DNA from: Treponema sp.
GTDB taxonomy: Bacteria; Spirochaetota; Spirochaetia; Treponematales; Breznakiellaceae
DNA length: 64,000 bases
NCBI GenBank assembly: GCA_031267685.1
Contig: JAIRYV010000009.1
Span: forward strand, 1-64,000
Direction: 5' to 3'
Shown here piece by piece: positions 18,185 to 20,001 of the stretch (positions within the stretch are counted from its first letter, which is position 1; the number at the start of each line of letters is the position of its first letter). The position numbers were made by a program, and so were the translations under genes. A model generated the notes under the pieces. The model did not search any database and was not told the origin of the DNA. It saw only the letters and a list, made by a program, of their open reading frames with translations.

Positions 18185-18643
18185 TTATTCGGCTTTGTTG
18201 ATCTTGATTACCCGTTTCTGGGTTTCGGTGCGCTTCTTGATTTCAAGGATGAGAATACCGTTTTTGAAGGCCGCCGTGATGTTCTCCGAATCAGCGTTTT
18301 CGGGCAATTTAAGCGTGCGGCTGAACCTTGCGTGGCGGCGCTCCTGAAGGATGTAGGTTCCTTCCTTTTTCTCGTTCTTCTCCGCTTCGTTGCTTTTCGA
18401 TGCGAGAGTCAATGCTCCACCGTTCACATGCACCTCAATCGTCGTGTCGTCGTAGCCGGGAAGCTCCGCCTCGATCACGTAAGACGTGTCAGTCTCGCGG
18501 ACATCCAGCAATGGCAGATGGTTGAGAATACGGCTCTCGCCGACTGAAAGGGGTGAATCATCGAAAAGTGATTCTACATAGCGATTGAAATCATTCAACG
18601 CGTTCTCAAGGGTAGTGGGACGATACAAGGTAACTTTTGACAT
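18185..18643 (-). CDS. hsp20: Small heat-shock protein Hsp20
   Basis: ATP-independent holdase chaperone, 152 residues. The alpha-crystallin domain covers about residues 45-140: LLDVRETDTSYVIEAELPGYDDTTIEVHVNGGALTL, then RHARFSRTLKLPENADSENITAAFKNGILILEIKK with the conserved AxxxNGxL motif. The tail ends KRVIKINKAE. ATG 18643 has AAGGAG 8 bases upstream; the frame extends further but that part is leader. The leader is about 125 bases and holds two hairpins. Upstream is a sigma-54 promoter match rather than a CIRCE element. Confidence 0.95.
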   Translation of the reverse strand: MSKVTLYRPTTLENALNDFNRYVESLFDDSPLSVGESRILNHLPLLDVRETDTSYVIEAELPGYDDTTIEVHVNGGALTLASKSNEAEKNEKKEGTYILQERRHARFSRTLKLPENADSENITAAFKNGILILEIKKRTETQKRVIKINKAE

Positions 18644-18670
18644 ACCAAGTCTCCTTAAAAAAGTTTTTTT

Positions 18671-18687
18671 CAGGCGCCATGCGCCTG
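18671..18687 (-). promoter_or_regulatory. Hairpin in the hsp20 leader
   Basis: On the minus strand CAGGCGC and GCGCCTG pair around a 3-base loop, followed by A7, C, T6 and then the AAGGAG ribosome site. A second small hairpin (GACAGG/CCTGTC, 18737-18751) lies further upstream. These could be a temperature-responsive leader, but the ribosome site itself is not inside a clear stem. Confidence 0.4.
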
Positions 18688-18781
18688 TATTTGATGCAGA
18701 TACGTAACATACACATTTCACGCCGGATAGGTTCCTGACAGGCTCCCTGTCTCCGCTGTTCTGCATCAACATCTATAGTTA

Positions 18782-18798
18782 AGCAAATTCCGTGCCAA
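18782..18798 (-). promoter_or_regulatory. Sigma-54 (RpoN) promoter for hsp20
   Basis: The minus strand reads TTGGCACGGAATTTGCT. This matches the -24/-12 consensus TGGCACG-N4-TTGCT at every fixed position, with correct GG-GC spacing. The predicted start is near 18771, giving a ~128-base leader. No sigma-70 box as good is seen between it and the gene. Confidence 0.75.
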
Positions 18799-18813: not shown

Positions 18814-18832
18814 AATAACTTTTTAAGTTATT
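18814..18832. promoter_or_regulatory. Palindrome upstream of the sigma-54 promoter
   Basis: Arms AATAACTT and AAGTTATT around TTT, 16 bases upstream of the -24 box. It might bind an activator, but sigma-54 activators usually bind 70 bases or more upstream. Confidence 0.3.
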
Positions 18833-18972
18833 ATATTATAAAGAAATGTTACAGAAAGATTTATCAATTTCTATGTTTCAGCAACAGTCTAGCGTATATC
18901 AGCGTATCGGGGCTGTGTCATTTCTAGCTATGGCTCTTGTTTATGCTCATTATTTGTAGCAAAATGATACAC

Positions 18973-20001
18973 ATGAACGCCCTTTATTACGCAAATTTTG
19001 TTTCAGGTTTACAAGACCTGGTCGCGGATGCGCTCAAGCGTGACGTGAAAGACCTGCTCATCAAAAAAACGTTGGACGGTGCTCTTGTGTTTGAAACCAC
19101 CTGTCCACATGAAAGGCTTAAACATAAGTGCTTTAATAACCTTTTTGCTGTACTTAACCTGCGTGAGGCGGCCAGTCAGCGTCCCCTTGAGGCGCATATA
19201 CAGGAAGTATGCCGACGGCCGTTCAGAGTCGCGCCTTTATCCGGCAAAGCACCCCGCACATTCAGGATCATCACCTCGTATGCCAATCAGCTTACGGCAA
19301 TAGGCGAAAATGCGCGGCAAAGCGCCGAGTATCACATAGCGCATCAGACCGGCCTGTGCCTTTCACGAAACAAAAGCGATGTAGAGTTCTGGTTCCTGTA
19401 CCGAACCGAGGGCTTTTCCCTGTTTATGCAGAGACTCAGCTACCATGCCTCGTTTGACAAGGTCTTGCACAAGGGGGAATTGACACCGCCACTGGCCTAC
19501 GCGCTTTGTGCAGCAGCGCATTTACCCAAAGACGCACTTGTTTTGGACCCGTTCTGCGGCTACGGCGCGATACTCAAAGCCTGCCTCACATACTTTCCGG
19601 TGCGTACCTGCTATGCCTTTGACATAAGTGACGTGGCGTTGTGGTATACACGCCGCTACATGGCTGGTATTGCCGCAAAACGCACTATCATCAGGAAACT
19701 TGATGTATACGCACTCCCATCGCTTATACCAGCCGGAAGCCTTGATGCCATCATCACTGATCCGCCGTGGGGTCTTTACGAGCGTCTGATGCTTCCTCTA
19801 CCACGCTTTTATGTGGATATACTGAAACTCTTTGCCGCTGCGCTGAAGCCGGACGGAAGTATCACGCTGCTGACTGCTCAGACAGAGCTTGTAAGAAGTA
19901 TAGTGGAAAAATCAAATACTCTTGTTATAGAAGAAACTATAAATGTACTTGTTTCTGGTAGGAGGGCTTCGATATTCAGACTGAAGAAACGCTCCTGCTA
20001 A
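18973..20001 (+). CDS. RNA methyltransferase, THUMP/Trm14-RlmL-like
   Basis: 342 residues from ATG 18973. The N-terminal ~160 residues resemble the ferredoxin-like/THUMP substrate domain of this family (ALYYANFVSGLQDLVADAL). The C-terminal Rossmann methyltransferase domain has the SAM motif LVLDPFCGYGAIL near 200 and the catalytic-type motif ITDPPWG near 270, suited to N2-guanosine methylation of rRNA or tRNA. The frame is open to 18937, but MNALYYANF fits family starts better. No strong ribosome site is seen. Target nucleotide not determinable here. Confidence 0.75.
   Translation: MNALYYANFVSGLQDLVADALKRDVKDLLIKKTLDGALVFETTCPHERLKHKCFNNLFAVLNLREAASQRPLEAHIQEVCRRPFRVAPLSGKAPRTFRIITSYANQLTAIGENARQSAEYHIAHQTGLCLSRNKSDVEFWFLYRTEGFSLFMQRLSYHASFDKVLHKGELTPPLAYALCAAAHLPKDALVLDPFCGYGAILKACLTYFPVRTCYAFDISDVALWYTRRYMAGIAAKRTIIRKLDVYALPSLIPAGSLDAIITDPPWGLYERLMLPLPRFYVDILKLFAAALKPDGSITLLTAQTELVRSIVEKSNTLVIEETINVLVSGRRASIFRLKKRSC

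Follow-up and report, generated by a model that had tools for sequence, protein, structure and literature searches.

A conserved sigma-54 promoter precedes hsp20 across Spirochaetota and may belong to an Rrp2-class stress circuit

The hsp20 gene in a 64,000-nucleotide stretch of Treponema sp. DNA (the window) raises the question of whether a chaperone gene is transcribed here by sigma-54 RNA polymerase and, if so, under which activator. To our knowledge, links between sigma-54 and genes of the small heat-shock family are rare. A sequence-only reading of the window had claimed a perfect -24/-12 consensus on the correct strand, and this was borne out: the 17-mer on the minus strand (Table 1) is the sole exact match to TTGGCACGNNNNTTGCW in the window, with 0 matches in 100 dinucleotide shuffles. 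With two mismatches allowed, the sigma-54 pattern is at chance level in the window (15 found vs 12 expected), so the site is notable only as an exact match. It begins 155 nt 5' of the hsp20 start codon at 18643, which is better supported by orthologues and the ribosome site than the longer ORF start at 18772, and it is unchanged in three congeners. The rpoN gene, which that reading had proposed to look for, is encoded in the window's genome (PF04552, E 3.3e-49), where near-consensus sigma-54 sites number 107 compared with 42 in the control.

Table 1 Features of the hsp20 locus and of the second candidate target in the same genome
Feature	Position	Strand	Details
hsp20, 152 aa	18185..18643	minus	PF00011, E 3.4e-20; orthologues in 49/58 relatives
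Predicted structured hsp20 mRNA leader, 128 nt	18644..18771	minus	folding z-score -3.1
Predicted transcription start	~18771	minus	from the position of the sigma-54 promoter
sigma-54 promoter TTGGCACGGAATTTGCT, 17-mer	18782-18798	minus	exact consensus
Promoter elements	-24 GG, 18796-18795; -12 GC, 18784-18783	minus	
AT-rich palindrome on the promoter side of the candidate activator site	18826..18846		4 mismatches to ATTNCTTNNANTATAAGNAAT
Degenerate second activator site, candidate	18914..18930	minus	intact half TGACACA; 5 mismatches; 41 bp from first
Palindromic candidate activator site TGTATCATTTTGCTACA (minus-strand letters)	18955..18971		1 mismatch to TGTRTCANNNTGAYACA; 173 nt upstream of promoter
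Divergent UPF0020/RMKL-like methyltransferase gene	18973..20001	plus	PF01170, E 4e-12 on ORF 18937-20001; ATG at 18973
Sigma-factor gene in the window's genome	C55, promoter 37102		weaker palindrome sites 36907 and 36947, 40 bp apart

We assessed the conservation of this promoter with a sigma-54 weight matrix that was entered by hand from the sigma-54 consensus and used for all promoter scoring, at a threshold score of at least 12. Sense-strand -24/-12 sites reached this score upstream of 107 of 112 hsp20 loci in Spirochaetota, compared with one on the antisense strand and two on reversed sequence. Counting the window's own, 49 of 58 genomes have an hsp20 orthologue, and all 49 carry at least one sigma-54 promoter. 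The best match was a sense-strand sigma-54 site at each of the first 30 loci; the next 27 yielded 24 with a site, the three misses being second copies in G048, G054 and the window's own genome (G000). A wider search found hsp20 in 347 of 390 Spirochaetota genomes, and 53 of 55 additional upstream regions scored at least 12. These 55, including 21 loci from outside the window's order (20/21 with the promoter; 5/6 of those from other classes), are among the best-scoring hsp20 matches only. Together with the rpoN gene and the enhancer-like palindrome described below, this phylum-wide conservation strongly supports the RpoN control that had been suggested for hsp20, and on comparative grounds we regard sigma-54 control of the gene as close to certain.

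Upstream of the promoter lies a palindrome that we predict to be an enhancer. It is the only occurrence of the exact TGTRTCANNNTGNYACA in the genome and is identical in three congeners; because it directly adjoins the divergent gene's start codon, this identity among congeners does not count as independent support. Over the full set of loci, TGTRTCANNNTGAYACA with up to two mismatches was present in 65/106 hsp20 upstreams compared with 0/106 reversed, counts that omit one locus with too short an upstream and five loci scoring below 12. The palindrome centre falls at a median of 169 nt before the promoter, and the commonest spacings of paired palindromes are 40-41 and 23 bp. We assign the degenerate copy in the window as the putative second site of a pair on the basis of the 40-41 bp distance in relatives. 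Because the palindrome was first spotted on visual inspection of the initial 30 hsp20 upstreams, its enrichment in the hsp20 set is partly circular. One exact copy (L153 2503-2519, on G008:C42) sits between two ORFs and has no sigma-54 site near it.

The same palindrome marks a second target. When 15 relatives were scanned for it, 15 regions outside hsp20 were obtained, and five of these (L152, L154, L156, L157 and L162), from five genomes, represent one sigma-factor gene with a sigma-54 site; the other ten have no suitably placed sigma-54 site. A clpB promoter considered at L157 was discarded, as translation shows the sigma-factor gene there instead. The gene encodes a sigma-70-family factor of ~290 aa with regions 1.2, 2, 3 and 4, which scores below the NCBIfam cut-offs of RpoD, RpoS and RpoH, and it is present in 50 of 58 genomes. 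A sense-strand sigma-54 site scoring at least 12 precedes it in 47 of 49 upstreams, a set that excludes the partial match in G003, with G036 and G039 as the exceptions. Among 80 further loci from named records, all 80 carry a site, 79 of them on the sense strand, compared with 0/80 inside the gene. The palindrome was defined from the hsp20 upstreams and the sigma-factor set played no part in its definition; it occurs here with up to two mismatches in 32/47 upstreams compared with 0/47 reversed, the two loci scoring below 12 being omitted, and the spacing of pairs is sharp at 40 bp. Both genes also have an AT-rich palindrome (~ATTYCTTRTATTATAAGRAAT) that lies some 30-60 bp before the sigma-54 site and is enriched in the two promoter sets. 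At up to four mismatches it is found in 12/106 hsp20 and 13/47 sigma-factor upstreams, against 0.1% of shuffles, and in the window's genome a related element is present ahead of the sigma-factor gene (L295, ~1230-1260).

Which protein would act at these sites? The window's genome encodes three strong enhancer-binding proteins, of GAF1 type (C101), AtoC-like (C17) and NtrX-like (C33). Searches with these three revealed a further class, Rrp2, which co-occurs with the two targets and is encoded in 52 of 58 genomes. The Rrp2-class gene is not found in the window's assembly, which is 82% complete, but is present in three of four congeners; across the set, the six absences compare with ~6.3 expected from incompleteness, by a hand sum of the completeness values. 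In G050 (99% complete) and G013 (94%), both of which carry both promoters, no activator outside the Rrp2 class reaches E <=1e-60. By contrast, G034 (96% complete) has both promoters and no Rrp2, which counts against Rrp2 as the activator. The class forms one clade (18 rows, SH-aLRT 98), and the five proteins analysed from congeners and relatives combine a receiver, an AAA+ domain and a Fis-type HTH. The GxFTGA loop contacts sigma-54, and G[AS][FY]TGA is intact in 18/18 Rrp2-class members, compared with GAFTDA in 26/30 NtrX-like loci and GAFT[DNS]A in 27/30 GAF1 loci. The capacity of these last two classes to activate sigma-54 is thus uncertain. The sole activator with an intact GAFTGA in the window's own genome is the AtoC-like protein, which again speaks against the Rrp2 reading.

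The Rrp2-class gene usually adjoins a gene for a PAS kinase, and in G036, a T. denticola-like genome, the genes run kinase, activator, ftsJ, one gene, htrA. In T. denticola, TDE1968 is ftsJ, followed by TDE1967 and by TDE1966, htrA-1 (PMC2965109), and TDE1970 and TDE1969 are Hpk2 and Rrp2 (PMC12070737). The matching order points to TDE1970/TDE1969 as the counterpart of the pair found in the relatives, and the distribution, motifs and gene order together make Rrp2 (TDE1969, with its kinase Hpk2) the likely activator. Published primers for TDE0937 match the sigma-factor gene with one mismatch each, those for groES matching exactly, so the sigma factor corresponds to TDE0937. By microarray, heat, oxygen and osmotic downshift induced the Hsp20 gene TDE1029 9.5-, 8.5- and 6.7-fold and TDE0937 2.8-, 21.8- and 14.0-fold, respectively, and TDE0937 was proposed as a stress regulator (PMC2965109). 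This co-induction is weak support and no proof, since many heat genes and other chaperones also rose. In addition, Hpk2 is reported to sense oxygen via its PAS domain and to be more active without oxygen (PMC12070737), which is awkward for the Rrp2 reading because both genes rise with oxygen. The tie to an enhancer-binding protein put forward in the sequence-only reading is supported by inference, although the gene of the leading candidate does not adjoin hsp20 and is missing from the incomplete assembly; the envelope, flagellar or nutrient signals it had suggested are not supported. The published T. denticola data indicate heat, oxygen and osmotic stress.

These observations fit a model in which sigma-54 RNA polymerase would transcribe hsp20 from 18782-18798. 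The PAS kinase encoded beside the activator gene (in T. denticola, Hpk2) would phosphorylate the Rrp2-class response regulator, an enhancer-binding protein that would bind the palindrome pairs ~130-220 bp upstream and whose AAA+ domain, which bears the GxFTGA loop, would open the promoter. The same regulator would turn on the group-2 sigma-70-family factor (TDE0937 in T. denticola). With one regulator for both targets, a single signal would directly yield the chaperone and, by an indirect route, a broader stress programme. We infer, rather than observe, that Rrp2 is the palindrome-binding protein and which signal it reads. As a whole, we consider this model probable.

Alternatively, hsp20 could depend on sigma-54 with one of the other activators, GAF1-type, AtoC-like or NtrX-like, or with several acting at one site. 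We think this unlikely, though it keeps an appreciable chance: all three are encoded in the window's assembly, from which Rrp2 is absent, 50 of 58 relatives have a GAF1 orthologue, and the AtoC-like protein has the intact loop noted above. However, G050 and G013 lack all three at E <=1e-60 and still carry both promoters. GAF1 was rejected as the activator because neither these two genomes nor G032 (99% complete) has a close orthologue, and family f3 has no close NtrX-like or AtoC-like orthologue among the matches listed. The mostly altered GAFT[DNS]A loops of the GAF1 and NtrX-like proteins also weigh against this alternative. In the neighbourhood of hsp20, a search of 57 loci with the NtrX-like query returned one weak match (28% identity, L052).

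The palindrome might instead be an operator for a repressor or another regulator, with the sigma-54 activator binding elsewhere. Its role as a protein-binding site is a prediction, the AT-rich palindrome provides a second element between the TGTRTCANNNTGAYACA-type site and the promoter, and the exact copy in G008 stands apart from any sigma-54 site. Its position ~130-220 bp upstream, the pairing at 40-41 bp and the sigma-54 promoter that accompanies it at each of the two genes are nevertheless as expected of an enhancer, and we judge the operator explanation improbable. Finally, the promoter could be an incidental match and hsp20 could be under sigma-70 with HrcA/CIRCE or other heat-shock control. 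Weak sigma-70-like sites are indeed present, at the chance rate, but the window contains no CIRCE inverted repeat at up to three mismatches, and conservation of the promoter at 107 of 112 loci makes this explanation barely credible.

Under the Rrp2 model, a regulator called unstudied in 2025 and predicted to be a sigma-54 enhancer-binding protein (PMC12070737) would gain specific candidate targets as well as a putative binding site. The kinase-activator pair of the relatives has the same gene order as Hpk2-Rrp2 (TDE1970-TDE1969), for which the available passages of the published account give no targets, compared with the two proposed here. If true, the model would explain the induction of the T. 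denticola core-stress factor TDE0937, for which the available passages of PMC2965109, the only paper found with this locus tag, name no controlling factor. Our analysis also suggests that in many spirochaetes a part of the stress response depends on a sensor and regulator that have received little study. The best-known claim of a sigma-54 small heat-shock gene, E. coli ibpB, resembles the present case in its proposed sigma-54 promoter but differs in that this promoter was later disputed, genome-wide ChIP giving background signal only and suggesting misannotation (PMC4591121). Chaperone genes including IbpA (COG0071) are predicted downstream of sigma-54 promoters in Bacteroidota and Planctomycetota, and the passages available name that cluster for these phyla, not for Spirochaetia (PMC12316311). 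In a survey of titles, abstract openings and passages with little coverage of the subscription literature, we found no report of a spirochaete hsp20 under sigma-54.

We also analysed G243 (914,768 bp), which, its gene positions considered, we take to be Borrelia-like. Its activator is 54% identical to that of G036, adjoins a similar kinase and falls inside the Rrp2 clade (19 rows, SH-aLRT 96). Near this activator, an RpoS-like ORF carries a sigma-54 site scoring 13.8, against a background, itself including the RpoS-like stretch, in which 1 of 456 windows reaches 12 and none 14. No sigma-54 site was detected upstream of the G243 hsp20, which counts against our preferred explanation, and RpoS sits on a long branch relative to the sigma factor, its placement unsure. 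The system proposed here and the Borrelia Rrp2-RpoN-RpoS pathway, as outlined in the available part of a review, both combine sigma-54 with an activator of the Rrp2 class and a target from the sigma-70 family; in contrast, hsp20 is a predicted direct target here and not in G243, and a clear paired enhancer-like palindrome is present here. These comparisons make a common origin with the Borrelia cascade plausible. Given that the Rrp2 clade includes the G243 activator, the Borrelia pathway may be a derived remnant, and the Lyme Rrp2-RpoN-RpoS pathway would then sit inside an older stress circuit. In its fullest form this would be an ancestral, two-tier circuit of Spirochaetota in which Hpk2-Rrp2 and sigma-54, via paired TGTRTCANNNTGAYACA enhancers, would drive hsp20 directly and, in parallel with it, a sigma-70-family factor for general stress. 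The Borrelia virulence pathway would be its reduced form, from which hsp20 was lost and to which host adaptation was added. For this extended scenario we see the chances as evenly balanced.

The predicted hsp20 leader shows unusually strong folding and is well conserved within the genus. We considered an RNA thermometer and rejected it: an Rfam search of the leader gave no match, and the ribosome site is unpaired at 0.51 in 53 leaders compared with 0.46 in shuffles and so is not more hidden. Despite the good predicted fold of the leader in the window (z -3.1), 0/48 predicted pairs show a compensatory change across four congeners. The divergent methyltransferase gene is not part of the hsp20 promoter system. 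The window's genome encodes one further, distant HSP20-like protein (L104, G000:C90:2733-3035), whose gene is without a sigma-54 promoter. Though hsp20 and the sigma factor are absent from G044 (1.1 Mb), which we presume to be T. pallidum-like, this genome keeps an Rrp2-class activator (C1:560793-562118, L282).
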